DNA of 64,000 nt, from positions 154,918 to 218,917 of the forward strand of contig MWDJ01000001.1 of assembly GCA_002070505.1 (NCBI GenBank), read 5' to 3'. The DNA comes from Bacteroidetes bacterium ADurb.Bin145 (GTDB lineage: Bacteria > Bacteroidota > Bacteroidia > Bacteroidales > VadinHA17). The translations under genes and the position numbers were made by a program. Each line of letters begins with the position of its first letter. Position 1 is the stretch's first letter. This document shows positions 38,508 through 54,235 of this stretch, in pieces. The notes beneath the pieces were generated by a model that was not told where the DNA came from, ran no database searches, and was given only the letters and a program-made list of their open reading frames with translations.

Positions 38508-40679
38508 ATGAGGACTCAGAAACTATATTCAGGATACAAGGGCTTACTGCTGGTGGCAAAGAATACGATTGCACCTGGTGATACAAAAAAGATCAGGAAA
38601 GCCCTCGATCTGGCTGCAAGTGCCTGTGGAGATAATGTCACTCTGACCGGTGAACTCCAGATACAACATGCACTCTCCGTTGCACGAATAGTAGCCGAAG
38701 AGATGGGACTTGGCGTAACCTCGATAGTTACAGCAATCCTGCATGATTCGTATAATAAACTGGATATCAGTACTAAAGAACTTGAGAAAGAATTCGGTAG
38801 CAAAGTTGTGGAAATACTGGATGGTTTTTCAAGGATCACCGGGATTGATTCAATGCATTCGTCATACCAGGCAGAGAACTTCCGCAAACTGCTGCTCAGT
38901 CTCGCTGATGATGTCAGGGTGATACTAATCAAACTTGTTGAGCGTCTGGAATATATGCGGAACCTGGATAATGCTCCGGAAAAGGAGAGAATGCCCATGG
39001 CTTCAGAAACATATTTTCTTTATGCTCCATTGGCTCACCGGCTTGGATTTTACAATATCAAGTCGGAAATGGAAGATCTTTCAATCAAATACCTTGAACC
39101 TGAACAATACAGATTCATCGAGAACAGGCTGAAACAGACTACAGCCTCAAGGAACAGACTGATTCGGGAATTCTCGGCTCCAATACAGGAGAAACTCGAG
39201 AAGACAGGCTTTAGATTCACTATCAAAAGCCGCACAAAATCAATACATTCCATCATGACGAAAATGAAGAAGCAGGGGGTGGAATTTGAGGAGGTCTTTG
39301 ATATTTTTGCGGTCAGAATAATTATTGATAGTGAAAATAATAATGATAAGGCAGATTGCTGGCGGGTCTATTCAATAGTTACAGATCTCTATCAGCCAAA
39401 TCCCAGCAGATTACGCGACTGGATATCTGTTCCGAAATCAAATGGATATGAATCGCTTCATACGACAGTCATTGGTCCCAGGGGCCGGTGGGTTGAGGTA
39501 CAGATCCGTTCCAGACGTATGGATGAGATAGCTGAAAAAGGCCTGGCTGCGCATTTTAAATATAAAGGACTGAAAGGAGAGGGGGGACTTGATACATGGC
39601 TGACAAAAATACGGGAATTACTGGAATCTTCTGACAAAGAAGACAAGGAGTTCCTTGATAACGTAAGATCAGGTTTATACACTGATGAAGTATTTGTGTT
39701 TACGCCGAAAGGTGATCTCAGGCAACTGCCTGCCGGAGCTACAGTCCTGGATTTCGCATTTGACATCCATACAGCATTAGGGTCCTCTTGTGTCGGAGGA
39801 AAAGTAAATGGGAAAAACGTGCCACTCAGGTATGTGCTTCAAAATGGCGATCATGTGGATGTCATAAGATCAAAAAATCAGCGGCCCAAACGCGACTGGC
39901 TGTCCATTGTAGTTACAAATAAAGCCAGGACGAAGATAAAACTTGCTCTTAACGAAGAAAGGGCGAAGGCAGCTGCTGAAGGCAAAGAGATCCTTATGCG
40001 CCGTTTGAAGAACTGGAAGATCCCATACGGAGATACAATAATTCAGAGACTTATCAACCATTATAACTTTAAGACAGCACAGGATCTTTATTATAGTATT
40101 GAATCAGGAAAGCTGGAATTGCTCGAGATCAAGGATATCCTGCTGAAAGAGGAATCCACCGGAGGAGTAATTCCTCCAGGGACAATATCTGAAAAAGAAA
40201 CCAGGGAACTCTTTGAATCGCAATTCTCTGATTTTCTATCTATTGAAGATAAGGTCGAGGGACTTGATTACAAACTGTCAAAGTGTTGCAATCCTGTTCC
40301 CGGAGATTCAATATTCGGATTTGTGACAATTTCAGAAGGAATAAAAATACACCGGACTGCTTGTCCTAATGCCCATAACATGCTAGCAAGATATCCGTAT
40401 AGGGTTATTTCTGCACGTTGGACCAAATCAAAAAGCGGGACATCATTTATAGCTACTATTAAGGTAACCGGGGTTGAAGATATCGGTATTGTGAACAAAA
40501 TATCTGAAGTGATAACCGGTTTCAATGCCACTGTAAGGAGTTTTAACTACAACATGGAAGAGGGTATGTTTGAAGGGACTATTAATCTGTTAGTTGCGAA
40601 TAATGACATGCTGTATGGAATAATAAGAAAAATCCATTCAATAAAAGGAATCCTGAAAGTTAACCGTCAAAATAACTGA
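38508..40679 (+). CDS. RelA/SpoT-family (p)ppGpp synthetase with altered hydrolase motifs
   Basis: A 723-residue RSH protein with an N-terminal HD-like domain, synthetase domain (about residues 235-350, RTKSIHSIMTKMKKQGVEF, SNGYESLHTTVIGP, AEKGLAAHFKYK), TGS domain (DEVFVFTPKGDLRQLP), a zinc-finger-like CCNPVPGDSIFGF region and a C-terminal ACT domain. H54 and H79-D80 are kept, but the ED pair after HD is NK (HDSYNK) and the usual aspartate in LADR is glutamate (LVERLEYMR). Hydrolysis of (p)ppGpp is therefore probably lost. The synthetase basic RxxD motif (SRLRDW) resembles bifunctional SpoT/Rel enzymes. Its stop lies in a hairpin shared with the convergent dnaE gene. Confidence 0.88.
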   Translation: MRTQKLYSGYKGLLLVAKNTIAPGDTKKIRKALDLAASACGDNVTLTGELQIQHALSVARIVAEEMGLGVTSIVTAILHDSYNKLDISTKELEKEFGSKVVEILDGFSRITGIDSMHSSYQAENFRKLLLSLADDVRVILIKLVERLEYMRNLDNAPEKERMPMASETYFLYAPLAHRLGFYNIKSEMEDLSIKYLEPEQYRFIENRLKQTTASRNRLIREFSAPIQEKLEKTGFRFTIKSRTKSIHSIMTKMKKQGVEFEEVFDIFAVRIIIDSENNNDKADCWRVYSIVTDLYQPNPSRLRDWISVPKSNGYESLHTTVIGPRGRWVEVQIRSRRMDEIAEKGLAAHFKYKGLKGEGGLDTWLTKIRELLESSDKEDKEFLDNVRSGLYTDEVFVFTPKGDLRQLPAGATVLDFAFDIHTALGSSCVGGKVNGKNVPLRYVLQNGDHVDVIRSKNQRPKRDWLSIVVTNKARTKIKLALNEERAKAAAEGKEILMRRLKNWKIPYGDTIIQRLINHYNFKTAQDLYYSIESGKLELLEIKDILLKEESTGGVIPPGTISEKETRELFESQFSDFLSIEDKVEGLDYKLSKCCNPVPGDSIFGFVTISEGIKIHRTACPNAHNMLARYPYRVISARWTKSKSGTSFIATIKVTGVEDIGIVNKISEVITGFNATVRSFNYNMEEGMFEGTINLLVANNDMLYGIIRKIHSIKGILKVNRQNN

Positions 40680-40693
40680 ATATCACTATTCAG
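40676..40693. terminator. Short hairpin spanning both convergent stop codons
   Basis: CTGAATA (40676-40682) and TATTCAG (40687-40693) form a 7-bp stem that covers the stop codons of the RSH gene and the convergent dnaE gene. There is no T-run, so it is at best a weak terminator. Confidence 0.35.
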
Positions 40694-43623
40694 TAACGTT
40701 TGTCGGGTTTCACGGGTAATTTTGCCATCTTTTCTACTTCCAGTGACGGATATCCGAATTCTTCGACAACTTTTCCCAGTATAAGATAGGTTCCTGCTCC
40801 TTTGAAGGGATATAACTTAAGTGATTGCGGGAAATGGGTTGTATCAAAGTAGTTTCCTTCAGGATCAATAAAGCATCCGAAATTCATCCATTCACGTTTT
40901 ATTGTCTTTATATATTTAATAGTAACCAGGTGACCTATCATCCTGATTGACATGCCTTTATTTTTGATCATCTCACGTGCTGCAACATCACCGCGATATG
41001 ATGTTTCAAGCATATCGAACCAGGTAAGAGATACAGGGAAACCCAGTAACTCAATTTCATCATAGGCATCATCGAGATTATCCTTTTCAAGCCGGGGAAG
41101 CGAGAAATTCCTGGCCGGCTGGGCAAAGAGGGGCCTTATAAGGTCAGGCTTGCTTTTATTTATCAGCATATGGGCCTCCCACAGAAGAACTGCTTTCTGT
41201 TTGCCTGTAAATCTTAATGCACCGGTCCGGATTAAAAGGATAAGCTGCTCAAGCCCCGGATTTATGCGTGATATGAAATCATTTAGATCAGAAAAATCAC
41301 CACCGGTCTTTCGGTTCTCTTCGATCATTGTGCCAAGATTGTATTCAAGACCCTGAATATGAATGAAACCAAGGTATATATCAGTGCCGTAAATAGTTGT
41401 TTTATAGTTGCTTTTATTAATACATGGAAGCTGGATTGTCGCGCCATATCGTCTGGCTTCATGGACATACACCCACGTACGGTAGAATCCGCCGAAATTA
41501 TTTATTACGGCTACCATGAATTCAAGAGGAAAGTGGGCCTTGAGGTACAGGCTCTGGAAGCTTTCAACAGCGTAGGAAGCGGAGTGCGCCTTAGAGAAGG
41601 AGTATCCGGCAAAAGACTCGATCTGTCGCCATACCTCTTTAGTCAGTTCTTCACTGTACCCTTTTTCGCGACAGTTTGAAAAGAACTTGCTGACAATCCG
41701 TTTCATCTCTTCCTTCGAGCGGTATTTTCCGCTCATAGCCCGGCGCAGCGTATCAGCATCAGCAAGATCAAGGCCTGCAAAGTGATGGCATACTTTGAGG
41801 ACATCTTCCTGGTAGACCATGACTCCGAATGTCTCCTCAAGCTGTTCTTTCATTACCGGATGTAAATACTTGAAATTATTGGGATTATGGAACCGGTAAA
41901 TATACTCACGCATCATTCCGGAGCGTGCTACGCCGGGTCTGATTATTGAGCTGGCTGCGACAAGTGTTGTATAATCATCGCATCTTAGCTTCTGCAGCAA
42001 TCCGCGCATCGATGGGCTCTCTACATAGAAACATCCTTTTGTCTCGCCTGACCGAAGGTATTCTTTAATCAGAGGATTTTTCTTAAAGTCCTGTATTGCA
42101 TGAACATCCACATCAATTGACCTGTTCCTGAGAATGATCTCAGCGCTTTCACTGATATGTCCGATACCCCTCTGGCTTAAGATATCCAGTTTCTCAAAGC
42201 CAATCTCCTCAGCAGTGTACATGTCCCATTGAGTTGTCTGGAACCCCTTTGGCGGCATATCAAGAGCGGTATAGAACGTTATCGGCTCTTCAGAGATGAG
42301 AATGCCACCTGCGTGAATACTGCGCATATTCGGAAAATCAGCTATCCTGAGACCGGTTTTGAAAATGATATTTGTTATTTCGTTCCTGTTTGTCTCGTTG
42401 GACGGATTATCAATTATAGCATCGATCTCTTCCTTTGGCAGTCCATGGACCTTACCCAGTTCCCTGACAATAGATTTTCCCCTGAAGGTGCTGCTTGTCC
42501 CAAGAAGTGCGGTATGTCCGGCCCCATATCTCTTGAAAATATAATCGATGACTTCATCTCTTTCTTTCCATGAATAATCAATGTCAAAATCGGGAGGACT
42601 GCTTCTTTTCGGGTTTATAAAACGCTCGAAGTAAAGGTTGAGATCAATTGGGTCAACGTTGGTGATTTTCAAGCAATAAGCAACAATAGAATTAGCTCCG
42701 CTTCCTCTTCCTACATGGTAAAAACCCCTTGACATTGAGTAACGGATAATGTCCCATGTGATAAGAAAATATGCTGAGAAACCGAGTTTATCGATTACCT
42801 CCAGTTCATGCCGGATCCTTTTCTTTGCTTCAGGGTTATTTCTGCCGTATCTGTAAATCATTCCATCCCAGGCAAGTTTTTCAAGGAGGAGCTTATCGTC
42901 ATACCGGCTTGCTGAAAAGATCTTTTTGTTTTTCTGGCTTTCAAAATCAAATTCTATCTTACAGTCATCAAGCAGGTTATCAGTGTTGGTTATTATTTCT
43001 TCATATCCCTTAAAGCTGTTTCTTATGGTTTCAGGGGTATGGAAGATCTCATCTTCTCCGGCGCAGTGTGAAGGTTTAAGATGACTCAGAAGGATATTAT
43101 TATCGATTGCTCTAAGGCATCTGTGGATGAAAAGATCCTCATTGCCTGCCAGAGTAACAGGATTAAGGATCACCATTCTGCTCTTTTCTGACATTGAGAG
43201 TGTAAGCAATCTGTTTGCCTCACCGGGTCTTATTCCAATACGTTCATTGTCTGACAGTTTTCGTTTCGGGTATTTATTAAATGGGTAGATAATACAGGCT
43301 TCTGAGAAGGGGGGAGCAGATAGGGGCAGATCAGTTTTTTCGATATTATGTTTCGAAAGGAATTCGTTCAGTTCCCTTAATCCGTTGTTATTGCGGGCTA
43401 TGCCTATGTACAGCAGTTCATTTCCGTTCCTGAACTCAATTCCGGCTACAGGCCGCACGTTGTTTTTGCCGCATTCCTTTACAAATTCGGGTATTGCCGT
43501 TGAATTGTTTATGTCGGTTAGGGCAATAGTTTGAGCTCCGGCAACTTTTGCTTTTTGCACCAGTTGTTCCACGGACATTGTTCCGTAGCGAAGGCTGTAA
43601 TATGAGTGGCAGTTCAGGTACAT
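40690..43623 (-). CDS. DnaE-type DNA polymerase III alpha, probable error-prone form
   Basis: A 977-residue polymerase, shorter than replicative DnaE. A PHP domain covers about residues 1-250 (MYLNCHSYYSLRYGTMS, IALTDINNSTAIPEF). The polymerase core has GRGSGANSIVAYCL and the catalytic aspartates in PPDFDIDYSW, with a third expected in FEKLDILSQRG, and FSKAHSASYAVESFQSLYLK. It lacks the beta-clamp and tau-binding tail of DnaE1. With dinB upstream and a LexA-like gene divergent, it fits the DnaE2/ImuC-like role in damage-induced synthesis. The 91-base gap to dinB holds repeats. Confidence 0.88.
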   Translation of the reverse strand: MYLNCHSYYSLRYGTMSVEQLVQKAKVAGAQTIALTDINNSTAIPEFVKECGKNNVRPVAGIEFRNGNELLYIGIARNNNGLRELNEFLSKHNIEKTDLPLSAPPFSEACIIYPFNKYPKRKLSDNERIGIRPGEANRLLTLSMSEKSRMVILNPVTLAGNEDLFIHRCLRAIDNNILLSHLKPSHCAGEDEIFHTPETIRNSFKGYEEIITNTDNLLDDCKIEFDFESQKNKKIFSASRYDDKLLLEKLAWDGMIYRYGRNNPEAKKRIRHELEVIDKLGFSAYFLITWDIIRYSMSRGFYHVGRGSGANSIVAYCLKITNVDPIDLNLYFERFINPKRSSPPDFDIDYSWKERDEVIDYIFKRYGAGHTALLGTSSTFRGKSIVRELGKVHGLPKEEIDAIIDNPSNETNRNEITNIIFKTGLRIADFPNMRSIHAGGILISEEPITFYTALDMPPKGFQTTQWDMYTAEEIGFEKLDILSQRGIGHISESAEIILRNRSIDVDVHAIQDFKKNPLIKEYLRSGETKGCFYVESPSMRGLLQKLRCDDYTTLVAASSIIRPGVARSGMMREYIYRFHNPNNFKYLHPVMKEQLEETFGVMVYQEDVLKVCHHFAGLDLADADTLRRAMSGKYRSKEEMKRIVSKFFSNCREKGYSEELTKEVWRQIESFAGYSFSKAHSASYAVESFQSLYLKAHFPLEFMVAVINNFGGFYRTWVYVHEARRYGATIQLPCINKSNYKTTIYGTDIYLGFIHIQGLEYNLGTMIEENRKTGGDFSDLNDFISRINPGLEQLILLIRTGALRFTGKQKAVLLWEAHMLINKSKPDLIRPLFAQPARNFSLPRLEKDNLDDAYDEIELLGFPVSLTWFDMLETSYRGDVAAREMIKNKGMSIRMIGHLVTIKYIKTIKREWMNFGCFIDPEGNYFDTTHFPQSLKLYPFKGAGTYLILGKVVEEFGYPSLEVEKMAKLPVKPDKRY

Positions 43624-43629
43624 TGTTTG

Positions 43630-43713
43630 AAGTGCCTAGAGTGCCTAGAGTGCCTGGAATGCCTAGAGTTATTTTTAACTCTAAGTACTCCAAACTCTAG
43701 CTCACTCCAAACT
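43630..43713. repeat. Short-unit repeat cluster between dinB and dnaE
   Basis: Tandem near-copies of a 10-base unit (GTGCCTAGAG) run from 43632 to 43668, followed by inverted partners ACTCCAAACTCTAGC and CACTCCAAACT. TAGAGTTA (43664-43671) and TAACTCTA (43676-43683) form a perfect 8-bp hairpin. Matching sequence lies on the far side of dinB (44988-45100). Confidence 0.75.
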
Positions 43714-43714
43714 T

Positions 43715-44980
43715 TTATCTCCCATAAATATAATATCCCCTTAGTCTCTGTTCCATCATTTCCTGCTCTTTCAGGGCGTTTTCGATCTGTCTGCGGGCTT
43801 TTTCCTCGCGTTCGACTGTAGTCATCACTCCGGCGGCCCTTCGCACAGCATCCTTCCCGAAACGTTTTCTGAGCTTATCCATGGCCATATAAAGGCTCAC
43901 TTTCTCGGGAGTGTCGTCGAACATATCGAGTTGCTGGACTCCCCGTACAAGGTGACTGAATCTCACGCCAATAAGCCTGATCAGCATTCTCCGCTGGTAC
44001 AGCCGGCTGAAAAGCTCTTTGGAGATATCGATAAGTACATGATCGAAAGCAGTATAGGGAATCCTTTTCTGAAGGGTATGAGTATCGAAGTTAGAGTATC
44101 TGATCTTTACCGTGACGCATGAGGTAAGCTTTTCGTGCTTTCGCAGGTCATAGGCTATCTTTTCCACCATGCTCACCAGCAGCTGGTTAAGCATTGCAAT
44201 ATCGGTTGTGTCTTTTTCAAAGGTATGCTCAGTGCTTATTGATTTCTGTTCGGAATAGCTTATGACAGGCGTTGAGTCTATTCCGTTTGCCCTCTTCCAT
44301 ATCTCAATGCCATTTCTGCCCATCAGCTTTTCAAGCATTTCAGCCGGAATGTTTCTCAGGGTATATATTGTAGCTATACCCATTGAACGAAGCACATGAT
44401 AAGTTTTAACCCCGATCATTGGTATTTTGCTTATTGACAGGGGATCGAGGAAGGGGAGGACTATCTCTTTCCCGACCTCTATTTCTCCGTTTGGCTTTGC
44501 TTCTCCGGTCGCAATCTTCGATACGGTCTTGTTTATTGATAGTCCGGCTGAAATAGGCAATCCGGTTTCCTTTATTATATACCGGCGCAATTCATGTGAC
44601 CATTTGGTACATCCGTAGAAGCGATCCATACCGGTTATATCTATATAATGTTCATCAATAGATGATTTCTCATATAGAGGGGATCTTTGGGCAATTATTT
44701 CGGTCACAATATTAGAATATCTGGAGTATGCCTCCATGTCACCTCTTATTACAACGGCATCGGGACATAAATTCCTTGCCATTTTCATGGGCATTGCAGA
44801 GTTAACTCCATATTTTCTGGCCTCGTAGCTGCAACTGGAGACCACGCTGCGATCTGACATGCCGCCTATTATAACAGGCTTCCCGATAAGTCTGCTGTTC
44901 TTAAGCCTCTCCACCGATACGAAGAAAGTGTCGAGGTCGAGATGCAGTATGGAACGTTCTATATTGCCTGATAACCACAT
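43715..44980 (-). CDS. dinB: Y-family DNA polymerase IV (DinB-like)
   Basis: A 421-residue translesion polymerase. The catalytic aspartate D15 lies in ILHLDLDTFFVSVE, with the D109-E110 pair in SSIDEHYIDITG. The finger, palm and thumb motifs PVIIGG, SCSYEARKYGV and LSINKTVSKIATGEAKPNG are all present. Because all catalytic residues remain, it resembles an active DinB and not the inactive ImuB type. It has an extra C-terminal tail of about 50 residues, MTTVEREEKARRQIENALKEQEMMEQRLRGYY, perhaps for contact with the dnaE partner downstream. It is divergent from the LexA-like gene. Confidence 0.92.
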   Translation of the reverse strand: MWLSGNIERSILHLDLDTFFVSVERLKNSRLIGKPVIIGGMSDRSVVSSCSYEARKYGVNSAMPMKMARNLCPDAVVIRGDMEAYSRYSNIVTEIIAQRSPLYEKSSIDEHYIDITGMDRFYGCTKWSHELRRYIIKETGLPISAGLSINKTVSKIATGEAKPNGEIEVGKEIVLPFLDPLSISKIPMIGVKTYHVLRSMGIATIYTLRNIPAEMLEKLMGRNGIEIWKRANGIDSTPVISYSEQKSISTEHTFEKDTTDIAMLNQLLVSMVEKIAYDLRKHEKLTSCVTVKIRYSNFDTHTLQKRIPYTAFDHVLIDISKELFSRLYQRRMLIRLIGVRFSHLVRGVQQLDMFDDTPEKVSLYMAMDKLRKRFGKDAVRRAAGVMTTVEREEKARRQIENALKEQEMMEQRLRGYYIYGR

Positions 44981-44987
44981 TTTACAA

Positions 44988-45100
44988 GTTTGGAGTTTGG
45001 AGTTTGAAGTGCCTAGAGTTTTAAGTTTTTACCAATCGATGTGAAAATTGCGAGTAACTCATTATTTTCCATATTTTTTAACTTTAGTCACTCCAAATTT
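44988..45100. repeat. Dispersed repeat between dinB and the LexA-like gene
   Basis: GTTTGGAGTTTGGAGTTTG is followed by AAGTGCCTAGAG (44988-45019), and an inverted ACTTTAGTCACTCCAAAT lies at 45081-45098. The same words occur on the other side of dinB at 43630-43713. Confidence 0.7.
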
Positions 45101-45111
45101 TTTTAAAAAAA

Positions 45112-45143
45112 CTTGTTTATATAACAATTATATTATACTTTTG
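45112..45143 (+). promoter_or_regulatory. Promoter of the LexA-like gene
   Basis: CTTG (45112-45115), a 20-base spacer and an exact TACTTTTG (45136-45143) match the Bacteroidota pattern. The -7 element overlaps the first of two palindromic operators, so a bound repressor would block it. Confidence 0.6.
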
Positions 45144-45181
45144 ATTAAAAATTAATCAATTTAATGATTACAATATAATCA
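45142..45181. promoter_or_regulatory. Twin operator for the LexA-like repressor
   Basis: Two palindromes with the same half-sites: TGATTAAAAATTAATCA (45142-45158) and TGATTACAATATAATCA (45165-45181). Both read TGATTA-N5-TAATCA, and their centres are 23 bases apart, about two helical turns. The first overlaps the -7 element and the second ends 10 bases before the ATG. The layout predicts autorepression and probably joint control of the divergent dinB-dnaE genes. Confidence 0.65.
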
Positions 45182-45191
45182 ATTTTATATT

Positions 45192-46019
45192 ATGTACTTC
45201 ACATCTAACATAAAATTTTTAAGGAAAAGGAGGGGCAGAACTCAGGACGAAGTTGCTGCTGCCCTTAACCTGAAACGTTCAACCCTTAGCGGTTATGAGA
45301 ACGGTGTAGCACAGCCGGGCATTGACATACTTGTTTCATTTTCAAAGTATTTCAATATGTCAATTGATACATTGCTTAAGATCGACATGACAAAGCTTTC
45401 AGAAAGCCAGCTTGGCGAACTGGAAAGAGGTTATGATGCTTATATAAAAGGAAGTAATCTCAGGGTTCTGACAACCACTGTAGGTTCTGATAATGTTGAA
45501 AATATCGAGCTGGTCCCTGAGAAGGCCAAGGCCGGTTATACAACAGGATATGCTGATCCGGAATATATTGAAGAGCTGCCGAGATTCAGACTTCCCTTCC
45601 TTTCAGAGAAGCGAAAATACCGCACTTTTCAGCTTAAAGGTGATTCTATGCTGCCAATACCTGACGGGTCGTGGGTGACGGGTGAATATATTCAGGACTG
45701 GCACGAGATAATCAGCGGCAAAGCTTATGTAGTCTTTACAATAAACGATGGCATAGTATTTAAGGTTATCGAAAATAACCTTAATAAAGATGGGAAACTA
45801 GTTCTCTATTCACTTAATCCAATATATGAACCCTATGAGGTCCATATTAATGAAGTGAAAGAAATCTGGAAATTCATTAATTACATCAGCAATGAACTTC
45901 CTGACCCTGTCTTACCTGAAAAACAACTTTTTAAAGCAGTAGCCACAATAAAAAACGACCTTGAGAGAATAAAGGCAAGGATAGGAAAGGATATATCCGA
46001 TGCAGATGAACTGAAATGA
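45192..46019 (+). CDS. LexA-like regulator (XRE helix-turn-helix plus S24 peptidase)
   Basis: A 275-residue protein. Residues about 5-60 form an XRE helix-turn-helix (TQDEVAAALNLKRSTLSGYENGVAQP). An A114-G115 cleavage site (KAKAGYTTG) is followed by an S24/LexA peptidase domain with catalytic S152 in KGDSMLPIPDGS and K191 in IVFKVIENN. Such proteins bind operators and cut themselves when RecA filaments form after DNA damage. The start is fixed by the promoter and operators just upstream. It is divergent from dinB-dnaE and convergent, with abutting stops, to the YtfJ-like gene. Confidence 0.9.
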   Translation: MYFTSNIKFLRKRRGRTQDEVAAALNLKRSTLSGYENGVAQPGIDILVSFSKYFNMSIDTLLKIDMTKLSESQLGELERGYDAYIKGSNLRVLTTTVGSDNVENIELVPEKAKAGYTTGYADPEYIEELPRFRLPFLSEKRKYRTFQLKGDSMLPIPDGSWVTGEYIQDWHEIISGKAYVVFTINDGIVFKVIENNLNKDGKLVLYSLNPIYEPYEVHINEVKEIWKFINYISNELPDPVLPEKQLFKAVATIKNDLERIKARIGKDISDADELK

Positions 46020-46556
46020 TTATTCCTTGGTAAGTCCGATTATCAGCTGAATGATCTTTTCATTCTCTGACTCAGGTATCTTGCCTTTGTAGATAGCTCT
46101 TACTATACGGTTCTTATCAACGATCACAACACTGTAACTGTCTTTTGGAAGACCCCATTCTTTCTGAAGGGTAGCATCATAATCAAATAATATTGTTGTA
46201 TCGTATTTCTTTGCTTTGTTACCAGCAATAATCCTGATAAGTCCTTTTGGCTTCCAGGTCGATTTTGTATCGACAATTCCAAAGCCTTTAAAATAGTCTT
46301 TATTGATCCTCTTGTCAACATCGGTTGCCTTGTCAATGGCATCGTTGAAAGCATCATTAAGGTCTGATTCATCAGGATCAACATAATTGATCTGAAGAAC
46401 CTTCCCTGGCCAGGAATTCATTGTAAATTCCTTTTTATCAGCATCCTCAAAAGTCCATTCAGGAGCTTTCATTCCGACTTCCAGTTTCGCAGCCTGGCTG
46501 CAGAGGTAGGAAATTGTCAATAGAGAGAATAACAGAGTGAAGATCAGCTTTTTCAT
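46020..46556 (-). CDS. YtfJ-family thioredoxin-fold protein
   Basis: A 178-residue exported protein with a signal peptide (about residues 1-21). It has a thioredoxin-like fold in which TILFDYDATLQKEWGLPKDSYSVVIVDKN matches the YtfJ family, while the usual CXXC redox pair is absent. It is probably periplasmic with no redox role. Its stop abuts the LexA-like stop on the other strand. Confidence 0.65.
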   Translation of the reverse strand: MKKLIFTLLFSLLTISYLCSQAAKLEVGMKAPEWTFEDADKKEFTMNSWPGKVLQINYVDPDESDLNDAFNDAIDKATDVDKRINKDYFKGFGIVDTKSTWKPKGLIRIIAGNKAKKYDTTILFDYDATLQKEWGLPKDSYSVVIVDKNRIVRAIYKGKIPESENEKIIQLIIGLTKE

Positions 46557-46660
46557 ACTCAGAATTTTAATTTCACGAAATATATAAATTTTTTATCAGA
46601 ATAAACAAATTACACGGAGTATGATGCAGGTTTCCTTTTATTTGTCGTCATATCACATAC

Positions 46661-46760
46661 TGCCCAGCGCCTTGAAACTTGCAATCTTTCCGCTTGTTCG
46701 AAATCTCCGCTGCGCTGCGAGCTTCGAGCACCCTGCACCATGCAACCTGCAACTTGCACC
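46661..46760. repeat. Non-coding short-period repeat
   Basis: Degenerate units of about 10 bases, such as CTTGAAACTTGCAATC and CCCTGCACCATGCAACCTGC with AACTTGCACC, form a stretch that is richer in G+C than its flanks. Any open frame across it (for example at 46610-46804 on the minus strand) is a by-product of the repeat. Similar degenerate decamer repeats are common between genes in Bacteroidota. Confidence 0.6.
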
Positions 46761-46793
46761 AAATGCCCTGAAAGTACAGTGTTAACAATATGA

Positions 46794-47459
46794 TCAGTAC
46801 TCATTTAAAAAATCATTAAGCGGTTTCATTATCCTTGAGGCTCTCACTATAAGATCAAAACAGCGGGGATCCAGTATTTCCTTGTCTGTAATCATCCTTG
46901 AAACGAGAAAACTCTTAAGTCTGAGATATTCAATATACGGATGATCTCTTTTAAATCCTTTCGGAGCAGATTTAAGTTTCTCTCCCCCGATCTCTCCGAA
47001 TAACTCCCTGAACTCCTTTTTGGAGATAATACTGACAAATTTCTCACCCTCTTCATCAATTTTCTCACGAATGGCCGTAAGCCATGGCATCGGAGGCAGG
47101 TAGGCACCGCCTGCTATCATACTGTTATTTCCCGGCTCCACATGTATATAATATCCTGCTAACCTGTCACCATTCCTCTTGCCTCCGCGAACAACAAAGG
47201 CCCCCAGATGCGTTTTGTAAATTGTTTTGTCATTTGAGAACCTTATATCCCTGTTGATCCTGTAAGTACAGCTTTTTACTTCCAATCCTTTCAGAATAGG
47301 ATCGAATTTTACTATCTCATCCATCACCGCCTGTACAAATGATTCGAAATCGTTCCTTGCCCCCTCATACCTTGGTCTGTTTTTATTGAACCATTCCCTT
47401 TCATTATGTTGCTTAAGGTCAGAAAGAAATTCTAGAGTATGCTTATGTATTTGATTCAT
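46794..47459 (-). CDS. DUF2461 family protein
   Basis: A 221-residue cytoplasmic protein. It opens THEFLSDLKQHNEREWFNKNRP-like (TLEFLSDLKQHNEREWFNKN), then has TYRINRDIRFSNDKTIYKTHLGAFV and GGYYIHVEPG-like (AGYYIHVEPGNNSMIAGGAYLPP) motifs typical of the DUF2461/TIGR02453 family. Function is unknown. It is divergent from the nucleotide-sugar dehydrogenase. The 274-base gap between them holds an unexplained hairpin and a promoter. Confidence 0.88.
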   Translation of the reverse strand: MNQIHKHTLEFLSDLKQHNEREWFNKNRPRYEGARNDFESFVQAVMDEIVKFDPILKGLEVKSCTYRINRDIRFSNDKTIYKTHLGAFVVRGGKRNGDRLAGYYIHVEPGNNSMIAGGAYLPPMPWLTAIREKIDEEGEKFVSIISKKEFRELFGEIGGEKLKSAPKGFKRDHPYIEYLRLKSFLVSRMITDKEILDPRCFDLIVRASRIMKPLNDFLNEY

Positions 47460-47559
47460 AATTATTTAAATATAAAATTTTGTTTATTGTCTTGTTTTTT
47501 CCAAACTTCCGGTAATAGCATTGATGTTAAAAATAATGAAATGAAAGATAAGAATATAA

Positions 47560-47592
47560 AAAATCAGGTTTTCAGTTTGTATACCTGATTTT
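47560..47592 (-). terminator. Orphan hairpin with T-run on the minus strand
   Basis: AAAATCAGGT (47560-47569) pairs with ACCTGATTTT (47583-47592) in a 10-bp stem. On the minus strand it is followed by TTTTTTAT. No minus-strand gene ends just upstream, so it may end a small RNA or act as a leader attenuator for the DUF2461 gene. Confidence 0.5.
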
Positions 47593-47657
47593 ATCTGTTG
47601 ATCACAGAATTACGTTAATTCATAAAATCATTTATATGAATCATCATATTGCCGTAA

Positions 47658-47690
47658 TTTGTTAACATACAATTACTAATTTTACGTTTT
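47658..47690 (+). promoter_or_regulatory. Candidate promoter of the nucleotide-sugar dehydrogenase
   Basis: TTTG (47658-47661), a 21-base spacer and TACGTTTT (47683-47690) are close to the Bacteroidota pattern, differing from TAnnTTTG only in the last base. The gene starts 43 bases downstream. Confidence 0.45.
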
Positions 47691-47733
47691 CAAAGTGAAA
47701 AGTATATAATCTGCAACAGTTAATTTAAACAAT

Positions 47734-49368
47734 ATGAGTGAGAAATATTCCATCAGTCCGGCAGGGGAGAGGTTTCCTATACCGAAGCCAGAAGATTACA
47801 AGGCTGAATTTGAGCGACTTAAAAAGCTTGTCGAAAAGGAAAGAAAAAAAGGCCGTGAAATTGTAGTTGTTATGGGAGTAGGGTTTGTCGGTGCAGTAAT
47901 GGCAGCCATTGTGGCTGATACAGTGGATAAAAAAGGTCAGCCTTCGAAATTTGTAATTGGCATGCAGCGTCCCAGTGCCCGCAGTTTCTGGAAGATCCCG
48001 CTGCTCAATAGGGGGATTTCTCCGGTAAAGGCTGAAGATCCGGAAGTGGATCCTATGATAGATCGCTGCGTGAATAAAAAGAAGACTTTAATAGCTACAT
48101 ATACCTATGATGTTCTGAAACTTGCAGATGTAGTTGTGGTTGATGTTCAGTGCGATTATGTTAAAGAAGACCTGGGAAATGTCAGGTCAGGAGAAACAGA
48201 CATGGCAGCTCTTGAGGCATCCCTGCACGTCATTGCTGAAAATATTCCGGCTGATGCTCTTGTGCTTATTGAGACAACTGTTGCACCCGGTACTACAGAA
48301 CAGGTTGCATATCCAATAATGAAGAAGGTTTTCAGAAAGAGAGGAATAAAATCAGATCCTTTACTTGCTCATAGTTATGAGAGAGTGATGCCTGGCCGTA
48401 ACTATGTTGCCAGCATAAGGGATTTCTGGAGGGTTTGCAGTGGAATTAATGAAAAAGCAAGGCAAAGAGTCGAGAAATTCCTTACGGAAGTGCTCAATAC
48501 TGATAAATTCCCGCTGACAGTAATGGAAAGGCCAATAGAATCGGAAACAGCAAAGATAATAGAGAACAGCTACAGGGCTACGATCCTGGCATTTCTTGAT
48601 GAATGGAGCCTGTTTGCCGAGCGGAACGGAGTCGATCTGATCAAGGTGATAAAGGCAATAAAAATGCGTCCCACTCACAGTAATATGATATTCCCGGGTC
48701 CGGGTATAGGAGGCTATTGTCTTCCGAAAGATGGTGGCCTCGGGCTGTGGGCCTATAAGCATATCCTTGGTTTTGAGGATGATATATTCAAGATCACGCC
48801 AATGGCTATCGATATCAACGACACGCGCGGCCTGCATGTAGGTCAGCTTACGCGTGATGCACTGCGTAATATGGGACAGCCAATCGCCGGTGCTGATGTT
48901 CTTGTACTTGGTGCTGCTTACCGCGAAGATGTGGGTGATACAAGGTATAGCGGATCGGAGATTGTTATTAGAAAACTGACGGAAATGGGTGCCGAGATAA
49001 GGGTTCATGATCCATATGTGGAGCACTGGTGGGAATTTGAACAACAGGATACATATCCGGGTGTCGGACAGAGCAAGGCAAGGTTTTTCAGGAATCAGGA
49101 AAAACTGAAAGAGATCCATGTTGAACAAAACCTGAACAAAGCTCTGAAAGATGCTGATGCTGTGATACTTGCGGTGCCTCATAAGGAGTACCTTGATCTT
49201 GATCCGGAAAAAATCGTAAAAACTATCGGAAAACCTGCTGCAATAATTGATTGCTTTGGAATTCTGACCGATGACAGGATACGGAAGTATTTCAAGCTGG
49301 GTTGTGAAGTCAAGGGTCTGGGACGCGGTCATATTCAAAGGATCAAGGAGGAAATCCGTAAGAAGTAA
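47734..49368 (+). CDS. Nucleotide-sugar dehydrogenase (UDP-glucose/GDP-mannose DH family)
   Basis: A 544-residue NAD-dependent enzyme. It has a Rossmann region (VVVMGVGFVGAVMAAIVADTV, with an unusual 40-residue N-terminal extension), TTVAPGTTEQVAYPIM, the catalytic cysteine in GPGIGGYCLPKDGG, and a C-terminal UDP-binding domain (YSGSEIVIRKLTEMGAEIRVHDPY). It oxidises a UDP- or GDP-sugar alcohol to a uronic acid for surface polysaccharide. The exact sugar is unknown. It stands alone between a divergent gene and a long hairpin. Confidence 0.9.
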   Translation: MSEKYSISPAGERFPIPKPEDYKAEFERLKKLVEKERKKGREIVVVMGVGFVGAVMAAIVADTVDKKGQPSKFVIGMQRPSARSFWKIPLLNRGISPVKAEDPEVDPMIDRCVNKKKTLIATYTYDVLKLADVVVVDVQCDYVKEDLGNVRSGETDMAALEASLHVIAENIPADALVLIETTVAPGTTEQVAYPIMKKVFRKRGIKSDPLLAHSYERVMPGRNYVASIRDFWRVCSGINEKARQRVEKFLTEVLNTDKFPLTVMERPIESETAKIIENSYRATILAFLDEWSLFAERNGVDLIKVIKAIKMRPTHSNMIFPGPGIGGYCLPKDGGLGLWAYKHILGFEDDIFKITPMAIDINDTRGLHVGQLTRDALRNMGQPIAGADVLVLGAAYREDVGDTRYSGSEIVIRKLTEMGAEIRVHDPYVEHWWEFEQQDTYPGVGQSKARFFRNQEKLKEIHVEQNLNKALKDADAVILAVPHKEYLDLDPEKIVKTIGKPAAIIDCFGILTDDRIRKYFKLGCEVKGLGRGHIQRIKEEIRKK

Positions 49369-49384
49369 AAAATATAAATTTGCT

Positions 49385-49445
49385 TTGACATAAAATCGAA
49401 CGATATGATCCTGATGGATCAGGCTCATATCTGATTTTATGTCAA
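49385..49445. repeat. Long near-perfect palindromic hairpin
   Basis: TTGACATAAAATC (49385-49397) and GATTTTATGTCAA (49433-49445) are perfect 13-base arms. Inside them GATATGA-T-CCTGAT pairs with ATCAGG-C-TCATATC (one T/C mismatch). In total about 26 bp pair over 61 bases, with a 2-base loop. There is no T-run. It follows the dehydrogenase stop by 16 bases. Confidence 0.8.
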
Positions 49446-49582
49446 TCAGCAGAGCTGACCGCAAATTTTTATTGATTTCCTATAATTAATATTATGTCAA
49501 ATAGAAATAATTGGTATTGTAAAGATATTAATCCGCTACATCTGTTCTTCTCTCCTTTTGATAATTGGTTAGTTGTCGGAAA

Positions 49583-50383
49583 TCAGATACCAAGGTAATA
49601 CCATATGGCATCTGATGGCGTGTTGTCAAGCATAGGGATTGCTGGTATCTGAAAAAGATCCTGATCAGGAACATTTATTGTTGACTGGATTGATGTACGG
49701 ATAAACTTGTATCCGTTTCTTTCTGCAGCAGAAATAATATTCTCATCACCTGCCCCGTCGCCGAAAGGAAGAGCAAATACTTCAACTTTTCCAGGGATAT
49801 GCTGCTCGATAATTCTTTTTGATTCTCCAAATTCATAATCCAGAAACCTGTTATATTCATTAAAATCCTGGAACTTGCTCCTGTCAGTATAAAGATATGC
49901 ATGTGAAAATGAATGTGATCCGAAGTTAAAAGGATGAACTCCGCCTTCCAGGGTGTAATAACTCATCATTTCTACATCCTCCCATTCCATAAAGGAATTT
50001 CGACCTATCATATGGACCCAAAGAAAAAATGTAGCCTTGTACCTGTATTCTTTCAATAATGGCTGAACAAGACTAAACCAGGAATAGTCTCCATCATCAA
50101 AAGTTATGATAGCAGAGTTTCCCGCAGGCATTTTCCCTGATTCTTTAATAACTGTAAGATCATTAAAACTTATTACGTTAATGTTGTGCTTCCTTAGATA
50201 TTCAAAGTCATTTTTGAGGTTTTCTATGCTTCGCTCATAGAGATTGGCAGCTTCCTGGCTTGTTATACGGTGATACATCAGGACTATTATTTTACCTTCA
50301 TTGTCAGGTTCAGGTTCGTCGTACCTGTAGCAACCTGTTAATATTAAAGTACTGAGAATCAATATTGTATGAATATTTTTCAT
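49583..50383 (-). CDS. Polysaccharide deacetylase-family lipoprotein
   Basis: A 266-residue lipoprotein with a lipobox LILTGC at about residues 13-18. The NodB-like core carries IITFDDGD (metal and catalytic aspartates) and GSHSFSH (metal-binding histidines), preceded by VLMYHRIT and followed by FALPFGDGAGDE. It probably removes acetyl groups from peptidoglycan or exported polysaccharide at the cell surface. It is convergent with the dehydrogenase gene across the hairpin. Confidence 0.88.
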   Translation of the reverse strand: MKNIHTILILSTLILTGCYRYDEPEPDNEGKIIVLMYHRITSQEAANLYERSIENLKNDFEYLRKHNINVISFNDLTVIKESGKMPAGNSAIITFDDGDYSWFSLVQPLLKEYRYKATFFLWVHMIGRNSFMEWEDVEMMSYYTLEGGVHPFNFGSHSFSHAYLYTDRSKFQDFNEYNRFLDYEFGESKRIIEQHIPGKVEVFALPFGDGAGDENIISAAERNGYKFIRTSIQSTINVPDQDLFQIPAIPMLDNTPSDAIWYYLGI

Positions 50384-50421
50384 TTTACACCGTGTGTCCT
50401 GAATTATATGGCAATATATGA

Positions 50422-50454
50422 AAAGCCCTTCAATTTACTAAACTGAAGGGCTTT
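50422..50454 (-). terminator. Terminator after the gyrA-TPR unit
   Basis: AAAGCCCTTCA (50422-50432) and TGAAGGGCTTT (50444-50454) form an 11-bp stem, ending on the minus strand in TTTT. It lies 22 bases after the TPR stop. Confidence 0.88.
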
Positions 50455-50476
50455 AATTATATATATCACAAAAAGT

Positions 50477-51652
50477 CTATCTACTCTGGAGGGCGCTAAG
50501 TTTTGCTTTTGTAGCTTCATATTTAGCGTTCAGTGAAGGATCTTTCTGTCTGAACCTGTAGTACAGTTCCTGAAGACTCTTCAGGGCATCTATATCGTCA
50601 GGTCTAAGTTCAAGAGCTTTTTCCATAATCGGAAGAGCTTTTTCATAGACAGCGTTTGCTTCATCAATAGCAGCAGAGTATTTATTCACGTCCATTATTT
50701 CGTTTGCTTTCTCAAACATCTTGGCTGCCTTATTTATATATGCTGCACCAAGTCCATAGTGTGTATCGTAAAGATCATTTTTAAGTTCAATCGATTTTCC
50801 GAGTTCAGCTATAGCTTCATCGTACTTCTCGAGGTTAAGGTACATTATCCCTGCAGCATAATAGAGACTGTAATTACTTGGATTTTTGGCTTTTGCCATA
50901 TCGATATACTTGAGAGCATTATCATATTTACCTGCTTTAAGGTAAAAGTCAATGAGCTGCAAAGTAATGTTTTCATCTCCAGGAAATTTATTCGGAAGAT
51001 CCAGCAGATACTGTTCTGCTTTCGCTGTGTCACCAAGGCCCATATAACTTTCAGATATCTGAATAAAAGGTGTAATACCCTGATATTGAAGTTCAACGCA
51101 TTTTTCGAAATATTTAATTGCATCATTGTACTTATGAGCATTCATAGCGGCAAGGCCGGCATTATAATACATTCCTGTATCCAGAGCGCTGACATATTTA
51201 TCACTTTCCGTTATCTCTATTTGTGTCGCAAATGATTTGAGTGCGTTCTCAAAATCCTTAGCCTCGAACATTTTACTTCCCTGATTATACATATCGAGAG
51301 CTAGTGAATTATAGATCATACCGGTTATGATCTTTTTCTTTGTACCCCCCTTAGTATCAAGGGCAAGTGCTTTTTCATATGCTGCATACGCTTCTGCAAG
51401 CGGGTCGGCACAATATGAACTGAATTTGGGATTATCAGATTCAAATACAGCCTGGCAAAATTTTCCTTTTGCAAAGTATGTATTGAACCAGTCTTTTGAT
51501 TTTTCATTGGCGAAAGCTGCATCAAGAGCCTCTTTTGCCTTATCAAGAGCTCCCTGTTCAATGAAGCTGAGAGCTGCGGTCACTTTGCCTTTTTGTGCCC
51601 ATACTCCTGTTGAGATACTAATAACTGCTATCAGCAGAAATAACTTTTTCAT
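50477..51652 (-). CDS. Exported TPR protein
   Basis: A 391-residue protein with a signal peptide (about residues 1-20, ending GVWAQ) and at least six tetratricopeptide units, for example YNAGLAAMNAHKYNDAIKYFEKC, YAAGIMYLNLEKYDEAIAELGKS and DTHYGLGAAYINKAAKMFE. It lies 87 bases downstream of gyrA on the same strand and may be cotranscribed. It should act as a periplasmic scaffold; its partner is unknown. Confidence 0.85.
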   Translation of the reverse strand: MKKLFLLIAVISISTGVWAQKGKVTAALSFIEQGALDKAKEALDAAFANEKSKDWFNTYFAKGKFCQAVFESDNPKFSSYCADPLAEAYAAYEKALALDTKGGTKKKIITGMIYNSLALDMYNQGSKMFEAKDFENALKSFATQIEITESDKYVSALDTGMYYNAGLAAMNAHKYNDAIKYFEKCVELQYQGITPFIQISESYMGLGDTAKAEQYLLDLPNKFPGDENITLQLIDFYLKAGKYDNALKYIDMAKAKNPSNYSLYYAAGIMYLNLEKYDEAIAELGKSIELKNDLYDTHYGLGAAYINKAAKMFEKANEIMDVNKYSAAIDEANAVYEKALPIMEKALELRPDDIDALKSLQELYYRFRQKDPSLNAKYEATKAKLSALQSR

Positions 51653-51739
51653 GATTTAATTTTTAATTTAAAATTGTAGTCTAAAATAATTTTCCAAATT
51701 TATAACATTACTTCTTAATCTTCAAATTCTTTGCCAAAA

Positions 51740-54235
51740 TCATAAGGTTTCATTTTTATCATCTGTAACTACCTCATTATCATTATCATCCTCATTGACC
51801 AGGACACATGCAACTGAGGCAATTATATCATTTTCCCTGAGGTTTATCAGTCTGACACCCTGCGTAGCTCTACCCATTACCCTTAATGCAGCCACAGGAC
51901 TTCTTAAGACATTACCAAACTGGGTAATAATCATCAGGTCGTGATTATCGGTTACGTCTTTAAGTGCGATAAGCGAACCGGTTTTTTCGGTAATGTTGAT
52001 TGTCTTTACACCTTTTCCTCCTCTGTTGGTTATCCTGTAACCATCAATATCAGATCTCTTTCCATAACCCTTTTCAGAAACCACCAGTATATCCTTTTCT
52101 TTGTTTTCAACGGTTATCATTCCGACCACGATATCAGTCTTATCGTCTGCAAGTCTTATTCCCCGTACTCCGGAAGCAATTCTTCCCATCGGCCTTACAG
52201 ATTTTTCGGGGAAACGGATTGCGCGTCCTGATTTTACTGCAAGCATAATATGATGGTTACCGTTTGTCATTCTTGCTTCCAGCAGTTCATCTCCTTCCCT
52301 TACTGTTATAGCATTAACTCCATTGGCTCTTGGTCGTGAATAAGCCTCAAGAGAAGTCTTTTTGATAATACCTTTTGTTGTGCACAACACAATGAAATTA
52401 TTGTTGATATAATCGGGATCATTCAAGGTCTTTATGTTAATGAATGCCTTGACTTTATCATCCGGTTCTATATTTATGAGGTTCTGCATTGCTCTTCCTT
52501 TTGAAGTGCGTGAACCTTCCGGTATTTCATAAACTTTAAGCCAGTAGCATTTTCCTTTGGTTGTAAAGAAGAGCATAGTATTATGCATAGTGGCAATATA
52601 CAGGTGTTCGATAAAATCCTCATCCCTTGTAGTGCCTCCCTTGGCTCCGGTACCTCCCCTGTTCTGCCTTCTGAATTCAGTCAGAGGGGTCCTCTTTATA
52701 TATCCCATATGTGATATTGTGATAACCATTTCATCATCGGGGTAGAAATCCTCAGGAATAAATTCCTCAGCGTTCGGTATTATCAGTGTACGCCTTTTGT
52801 CACCATATTTATCTTTAATTTCTGTCAGTTCGTCCTTTATGATCTTCATCTGCAGGTCTGCACTGGCCAGTACTTTCTTAAAGTACTCAATCTGATCCAT
52901 TACTTCCTTATACTCGGCCCTTAACTTATCCTGTTCGAGTCCGGTGAGCTGCCTCAGTCTCATTTCAACAATTGCCCTTGCCTGGATCTCCGAGAGGCTG
53001 AAACGCTCCATCAGCCTGTCGCGGGCTTCATCAGGAGTCTGTGACGACTTGATGATTGCAATTACCTCATCAATATTATCACTTGCAATAATCAATCCCT
53101 CAAGTATGTGCGCTCTCTTTTCAGCCTGATCAAGATCGAATTTTGTTCTTCTGATTATTATTTCATGCCTGTGCTTTACAAAATATGAAATAAGATCTTT
53201 TGTATTGAGTGTTTTTGGCCTTCCTTTTACAAGGGCTATATTATTGACATTGAATGTAGTTTGTAAGGAAGAGTATTTATAGAGATTATTGAGAACAACA
53301 TTTGCACTTGCATCTTTTTTAAGGATGATTACTATCCTCATGCCGTTGCGATCCGATTCATCGTTGATATACGATATACCTTCAAGTTTTTTCTCGTTAA
53401 TAAGGTCGGCTATTTTACGGATCATCTCAGCCTTGTTTACCATGTATGGAATCTCTGTGACCACGATGCATTCACGTCCGGAATGCGTCAGTTCTATCTC
53501 GGTCTTTGCCCTTACAACAATCCTTCCACGGCCTGTCTCGCAGGCGTCCTTTATCCCCTGCTCTCCATATATTATTCCACCGGTCGGGAAATCCGGACCT
53601 TTTACAAGTTTCAGTATTTCATCGGTGGTGATATTATTATTATCTATATAAGCTATGGTTGCATCAACAATTTCGGATAGGTTATGAGGTGCCATGTTTG
53701 TTGCCATTCCCACGGCGATCCCTGAAGCTCCGTTAACAAGAAGGTTTGGGATCCTTGTCGGAAGTACTACAGGTTCAGAGAGGGAATCGTCAAAATTAGG
53801 CTGGAAATCAACAGTGTTCCTGTCAATATCGGCCAGTGTCTCTTCTGCTATCTTACGGAGTCTGGCTTCAGTATATCTCATAGCTGCAGGACTATCGCCG
53901 TCGACTGATCCGAAATTACCCTGACCGTCAACAAGAGGATATCTCATTGACCAGTCCTGGGCTAACCGTACCATGGCTTCATATACAGATGAGTCTCCGT
54001 GCGGGTGATATTTACCCAGCACCTCTCCCACTATCCTTGCTGATTTTTTATAAGCCCTGTTTGAAAGAACTCCAAGCTCCGACATTCCGAAAAGAACACG
54101 CCGGTGTACCGGCTTAAGACCGTCACGCACATCAGGTAAAGCCCTCGAAACAATGACAGACATCGAGTAATCGATGTAAGCCGACTTCATTTCCTCCTCG
54201 ATGTTTACCTGAACCACCCTTTCTCGTTCTGCCAT
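51740..54235 (-). CDS. gyrA: DNA gyrase subunit A
   Basis: An 831-residue type II topoisomerase subunit. It starts [39 protein letters not shown], with the active-site tyrosine Y121 in [10 protein letters not shown] and the C-terminal beta-pinwheel starting near residue 500 with the GyrA box ([10 protein letters not shown]). Quinolone-contact positions carry S82 and E86 ([10 protein letters not shown]), like the usual S83/D87 with E for D. It supercoils DNA with GyrB. It heads the gyrA-TPR unit and is divergent from clpC. Confidence 0.96.

Follow-up and report, generated by a model that had tools for sequence, protein, structure and literature searches.

A predicted damage-inducible mutagenesis cassette with paired operators under a CI-like S24 repressor in Bacteroidales

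Several described systems come close to the locus that we analysed here. Sanchez-Osuna et al. (2021, PMC8565304) published non-canonical LexA repressors of Bacteroidetes with the operators GGA-N5-TCC and CTAA-N5-TTAG, along with further diverged motifs that include TTAC-N5-GTAA. In that paper, the COG4277 group is listed as an SOS target, the regulator gene of E. anophelis and the polymerase gene opposite to it are induced by mitomycin, small regulons are reported near clades without the regulators, and both non-canonical LexA groups are reported absent from Bacteroidales on the basis of complete genomes. For the polymerases, PMC6511836 describes a RecA-NT motif in the polymerase C-terminus.

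The window, that is, the whole stretch of 64,000 nucleotides that was analysed, comes from Bacteroidetes bacterium ADurb.Bin145 and lies on contig 1 of a genome of 3.95 Mb in 218 contigs. The original prediction, made from the letters alone, had seen in it a form of damage-induced mutagenesis in Bacteroidota, and this is also the best reading that we can offer: the cassette is quite probably a damage-inducible mutagenesis switch under a CI-like S24 repressor, with SOS induction as a part that we infer. A relative of the regulator was found, at E <= 1e-20, in 169 of the 393 genomes of the window's order (the window's genome included). The GTDB order Bacteroidales is wider than the Bacteroidales of NCBI, and the published survey used complete genomes, so the contrast with the reported absence may be partly due to sampling and naming.

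Genes of the cassette

The features of the locus are listed in Table 1. The dnaE gene is the next one after dinB on the same strand, and the regulator is divergent from both.

Table 1. Features of the cassette, with positions in the window
Feature	Positions	Strand	Basis
Predicted non-canonical LexA-type repressor, 275 aa	45192-46019	+	Pfam, conserved residues, AlphaFold2 model, PDB fold matches
Repressor parts (residues): CI-like HTH about 1-65; linker with predicted A114-G115 scissile bond; S24 with S152/K191; C-terminal helix 242-272			C-terminal helix: model
dinB, Y-family polymerase, 421 aa	43715-44980	-	Pfam IMS + IMS_C
dnaE, short accessory DnaE2-type, 977 aa	40690-43623	-	Pfam PHP + DNA_pol3_alpha (alpha NTPase) + finger + HHH_6
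Operator 1, TGATTA-aaaat-TAATCA	45142-45158	.	Sequence; conserved pair
Operator 2, TGATTA-caata-TAATCA	45165-45181	.	Sequence; ends 10 bp before regulator start codon
Predicted Bacteroidota -7 element TACTTTTG (TAnnTTTG), regulator promoter	45136-45143	+	Promoter consensus and conservation
CTTG, possible -33 element of regulator promoter	45112-45115	+	Sequence

The regulator had been described as an XRE-S24 protein with A114-G115, S152 and K191, and this description holds: it matches HTH_3 (PF01381, 6.3e-15) and Peptidase_S24 (PF00717, 2.8e-8), and the residues are found at those positions. All four are identical in the alignment of the 99 loci that carry an operator pair (see below); among all 184 aligned loci, G115, S152 and K191 are invariant and A114 is kept in 183. 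In a model made with AlphaFold2 from an alignment of 33 rows (mean pLDDT 70.8, pTM 0.43), the N-terminal domain consists of helices only, the S24 domain is rich in beta structure and a helix spans 242-272; this terminal helix after S24 is modelled at low confidence (pLDDT blocks 46-73) and the cleavage-site linker at pLDDT below 50. When the model was compared with the PDB by Foldseek, the best match was the lambda repressor 3bdn, followed by LexA. Close relatives of the regulator are 80-91% identical, and a more distant relative, from Lentimicrobiaceae, is 60% identical. The canonical LexA_DNA_bind domain (PF01726) is absent from the Pfam matches of the regulator and was found in 0 of 41 genomes (its own and 40 relatives), and RecA is present in all 41. 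Of the non-canonical LexA criteria, the regulator shows HTH_3 with S24, the Ala-Gly site, the Ser-Lys dyad and an N5-spaced palindrome in its own promoter region. As part of the explanation given below, it probably belongs to the published non-canonical LexA family, within which it would form a clade of Bacteroidales, and its cleavage would be driven by RecA.

A catalytically intact Y-family polymerase and a DnaE-type polymerase, divergent from the regulator, had also been predicted, and both carry the respective Pfam domains, although dnaE lies beyond the range 43630-46019 to which the prediction referred. The carboxylates of E. coli Pol IV, which are its catalytic residues, align with D15, D109 and E110 of DinB. 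The protein also contains QLDMF, which we take to be a clamp-binding-like motif, and its residues 362-381 align with the N-terminus of the RecA of the same genome with a score of 35, compared with 27 for the best of 300 shuffles (C-terminal 81 residues). Since a separate DnaE frame of 1166 aa exists elsewhere in the genome, the 977-aa protein is the accessory one. We recognised no ImuA-like gene by eye among the open reading frames of 40000-52000. A search with NF033429, presumably the ImuA family accession, gave matches at recA places only and none above the cut-off in the 41 genomes; of 14 control genomes, likewise, 0 passed the cut-off. We rejected membership in the ImuA-ImuB-DnaE2 class, as DinB keeps its catalytic carboxylates and no ImuA-like gene was recognised in 40000-52000. 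The idea that an active DinB and the lack of ImuA make this cassette special did not survive, because such sets are already described in Bacteroidetes, as PolY2 + DnaE2 (PMC6511836) and as DnaE2B-PolY-RecA (PMC12926913).

Tandem repeats of 9 bp, (AGTGCCTAG)n, flank dinB on either side (43631-43669 and 45008-45019 of the window). A 21-base form of the AGTGCCTAG repeat occurs at 16 places of the genome with at most one mismatch, some of them overlapping, and the reversed control gave 0.

The operator pair and the predicted promoters

The two matching TGATTA-N5-TAATCA palindromes of the original prediction are both exact and lie 23 bp apart. The search of the genome for more such sites that it had proposed returned three exact ones, two of them at this locus. 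It had also named conservation of the palindromes beside the regulator in relatives as a test, and in that test they proved conserved. The loci came from 80 of 286 regulator matches, from 41 genomes (30 loci) and from a search of the order (30 loci), partly overlapping; 60 further ones, strong and weak, were picked by hand from the list of the order search. After removal of duplicates and of rows below 48% identity there were 126 loci, 124 of which had at least 45 bp of upstream sequence. We called a locus twin if two sites like TGATTA-N5-TAATCA, with at most 4 mismatches over 24 positions, were 22-24 bp apart. Such a pair was present in 99 of the 124 testable loci and in 0 of 2480 dinucleotide shuffles. 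The spacing is 23 bp in 92 and 24 bp in 7 of the twin loci, and operator 1 has G at position 2 and C at position 16 in all 99. The pair is missing from 25 loci; 15 of these fall below 58% identity, and in 16 the stretch contained no divergent dinB. Over all 126 loci, dinB is divergent from the regulator in 97. Neither CTAA-N5-TTAG nor GGA-N5-TCC was found in the 250 bp before the regulator of the window (L087). A few other rows do have chance matches to GGA-N5-TCC, among them a twin-operator locus (L246).

For the promoters we assume a Bacteroidota consensus with TAnnTTTG at -7 and an element at -33. In 80 of the 91 twin loci with enough sequence, the last two bases of TAnnTTTG are also the first two of operator 1, and 75 of these 80 also have TTG at a plausible -33 position. 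By this placement, operator 1 covers the predicted core promoter and operator 2 follows immediately after it, in agreement with the earlier claim that the twin sites lie over promoter and leader. At each of five shifted positions the -7 element was found 0 times; note that this control is fair for upstream shifts only, because the operator itself constrains the downstream ones. Element and operator also share the TG. Facing dinB, on the minus strand, TAnnTTTG is exact in 13 of 97 loci and has at most one mismatch at one fixed place in 38, with no exact occurrence in the window, which hints weakly at a dinB-facing -7 element.

In 15 loci the regulator is 300-1050 bp away from operator 2. The operator pair starts 45-90 bp from the dinB match in ten of them, and 21, 173, 227, 255 and 613 bp from it in the remaining five.

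Reading frames of 122-150 aa are found between the operator pair and the regulator in 11 loci (L029, L147, L167, L172, L246, L247, L254, L255, L258, L266, L291), in 9 of which the operators start at most 90 bp from the dinB match. Judged by eye, we take these frames to be of the four-helix-bundle/IVS, GxxExxY or Y1-transposase type, and the gap between operators and regulator in these loci is possibly an insertion hotspot.

Regulon and operator specificity

In the 25 genomes of the genus there are 60 exact operators, of which 37 belong to regulator loci and 23 lie at other places; in the same genomes the reversed control gave 5. Eleven of the 23 lie inside reading frames of at least 150 aa and 12 do not. 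A COG4277-type radical SAM gene follows three of these 12, a DUF3795 gene three more and a zinc-ribbon gene one; the other five have no common theme. The label COG4277 was assigned by resemblance; the Pfam matches are Radical_SAM and DUF3795.

The radical SAM gene occurs in three of the 25 genus genomes, each time with an exact operator, and twice a weaker partner site, with 3 mismatches, lies 23 bp away. A single full-length regulator is present in two of these genomes, and none was found in the third (G002, 75% complete). Across the order the gene is present in 49 of 295 genomes. We read 35 of its loci, 30 from the order and 5 from the genus search; the three genus loci are the only ones with exact TGATTA sites. 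CTAA-N5-TTAG is found in 5 of the 8 loci that have a regulator on the fetched stretch, and in 2 further loci with no regulator there. The operator type at this gene is thus swapped, TGATTA in the genus and CTAA in 5 of those 8 loci from the order, and the gene is likely to be a second target of the repressor.

At ten loci (L115, L037, L280, L281, L282, L355, L358, L360, L363, L365) a second type of regulator, of about 40-44% identity, stands back to back with the COG4277-type gene. Several of them carry CTAA-N5-TTAG, nine are in the window's order, and L280 and L360 belong to one genome.

Among 11 close full-length genus homologues of the DUF3795 gene, the site is exact in 3 (one being the window's genome), has two mismatches in 2 and more in 6. 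The DUF3795 protein gene may be regarded as a candidate damage-response gene. The exact operator lies 29-37 bp upstream of a 112-aa DUF3795 gene in L206 (1166-1504, on contig C60 of the window's own genome), L177 and L182. Another exact operator, at 1598-1614 of L185 (genome G013, on the contig that carries the cassette of that genome), is followed after 12 bp by a zinc-ribbon (PF12674) gene and has a DUF2461-like gene at 132 bp; a DUF2461 gene is also found near the cassette in the window (46794-47459).

We rejected recA as a target of the repressor: in the 300 bp upstream of 20 genus recA loci there is no operator with two or fewer mismatches, and the best site has at least 3. The sole recA site with 2 mismatches, among 30 recA loci read, is from another family (G036). 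With recA lacking the operator, the regulon looks small and unlike a full SOS regulon. In the window's own genome we counted 31 sites with at most one mismatch, compared with 10 in the reversed control; 28 of them (L292-L319) have exactly one mismatch, a threefold excess. A wider regulon in this genome was rejected, as no SOS gene was recognised by eye at these 28 sites.

The regulator tree comprises 89 rows, namely 30 of the 99 twin-operator loci, all 9 CTAA loci and 50 of 76 others. All 30 twin rows fall into one branch of 55 rows (SH-aLRT 99) with zero CTAA rows. Of the 9 CTAA rows, 7 are in the adjoining branch and 2 in the other deep branch, and the window's regulator is placed beside CTAA-bearing rows. 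The remaining 25 rows of the 55-row branch have no operator pair, which means that the TGATTA pair is not universal there. Provided that midpoint rooting is about right, CTAA would be the older and TGATTA the derived type. In and after the recognition helix, the twin class has S33 (94 of 99), N37 (97 of 99) and V39 (83 of 99), and the CTAA class has G33, E37 and R39 in 9 of 9 rows each.

Interpretation and comparison with described systems

In the mechanism that we propose, a dimeric repressor would occupy both 17-bp operators, which lie 23 bp apart, and two dimers would probably cooperate in this. The -7 element and the leader of the regulator's own promoter would thereby be covered and the divergent dinB-dnaE promoter blocked. 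On damage, RecA-ssDNA filaments would trigger cleavage of A114-G115 by the S152/K191 dyad; with repression lifted, the active Y-family polymerase and the accessory DnaE2 would carry out error-prone bypass of lesions, with RecA probably bound at the RecA-NT-like motif of PolY. Several observations sit less well with this mechanism: the operator was not seen at recA in the genus loci read, a promoter towards dinB is not evident, 25 of the 124 loci and 25 rows of the twin branch have no pair, G002 combines an operator at the COG4277-type gene with no detected regulator, and the cleavage-site linker is poorly modelled.

We weighed three other readings of the locus. The palindromes might be due to chance, or be structural repeats, in an AT-rich stretch between genes. 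The intergenic region of the window has only 21% GC, and 1101 of its 5000 dinucleotide shuffles contain at least one 6-bp/N5 inverted repeat; at least two such repeats with the same arms appear in 14 of 5000. Because AT-rich shuffles yield such repeats, the palindromes of the window alone are suggestive, and it is their conservation across loci that makes the case decisive. With the pair in 99 loci and in none of the shuffles, G2 and C16 unchanged and the spacing held to 23 or 24 bp, an origin by chance is hardly credible. The repressor might also come from a prophage, either domesticated or left as a remnant, and its sites might be lysogeny operators with no relation to SOS. The CI-like N-terminal domain and the fold match to lambda CI speak for this origin, as do the top sequence matches of the HTH, which are small XRE-type and mobile-element regulators. 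On the other hand, no phage genes were recognised by eye among the open reading frames of 40000-52000, whose outer members resemble relA/spoT and gyrA; the linkage of regulator and dinB recurs together with the operators over many families, as a conserved chromosomal linkage, and exact operators also precede the COG4277-type gene. We consider this reading very improbable.

A somewhat more serious rival is that the repressor regulates itself alone and that dinB-dnaE is merely adjacent, with an independent promoter. Operator 1 does overlap the predicted -7 element of the regulator, an exact dinB-facing -7 element is restricted to the 13 loci mentioned above, and the operator is 161 bp from dinB in the window. 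Self-regulation alone would still leave the divergent linkage in 97 of 126 loci to be accounted for, and ten of the 15 loci with a distant regulator keep the operator pair 45-90 bp from the dinB match. The opposite polymerase gene is, moreover, induced in E. anophelis, according to PMC8565304. We therefore regard this rival as improbable and prefer the damage-inducible switch.

There is maybe a more general lesson, for which we see the case as evenly balanced. Bacteroidales, reported to be without SOS repressors, would hold a widespread clade of phage-derived repressors whose specificity has changed from a CTAA to a TGATTA half-site with matching changes within and behind the recognition helix, and which uses a lambda-like fixed pair of 17-bp sites. 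Its small, mutagenesis-centred regulon, uncoupled from recA, would amount to a mutator switch that is inducible while a general SOS response is lacking, and would also have taken over a repair gene where no CTAA-type paralogue was detected. If true, this fills the apparent gap of SOS regulators in a large, mostly uncultured part of Bacteroidales and gives a repressor family known for changing its specificity one more class of operator. It would also be a compact natural case of co-evolution between repressor and operator, because the target gene tends to carry the operator of the resident clade. It suggests that the part of the response that persists is the control of mutagenic polymerases rather than that of recA.

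In the lambda CI system, the spacing of OR1 and OR2 is about two helical turns. The cassette shares with it the 17-bp operators about two helical turns apart and the CI-like DNA-binding domain, and differs from it as a chromosomal locus with polymerase targets and an extra C-terminal helix. ImuA-ImuB-DnaE2 likewise links a Y-family protein to a repressor and an accessory DnaE; in the window, however, the Y-family protein keeps its catalytic residues and no ImuA-like gene was recognised beside it. An active PolY adjoining an accessory DnaE and a RecA-NT-like motif are shared with DnaE2B-PolY-RecA (PMC12926913; PolY2 + DnaE2, PMC6511836); in gene set and motif, we found no difference between the two. 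With non-canonical LexA, as described in PMC8565304, the locus has in common the CI-like HTH with S24, the Ala-Gly/Ser/Lys residues and the C-terminal helix, N5 palindromes upstream of its own gene, an opposite error-prone polymerase gene, a COG4277 target, and two or more sites in several promoters. It differs in having TGATTA-N5-TAATCA in a fixed 23-bp pair and not GGA-N5-TCC or CTAA-N5-TTAG, and the diverged motifs given in the same paper mean that this mismatch is no bar to membership. In searches of open-licence PMC papers we found mention neither of this operator nor of the family in Bacteroidales. Both halves of the system have already been described; the features that seem to be new are its occurrence in this order, the sequence of the operator, its pairing at a fixed 23 bp and the small size of the regulon.
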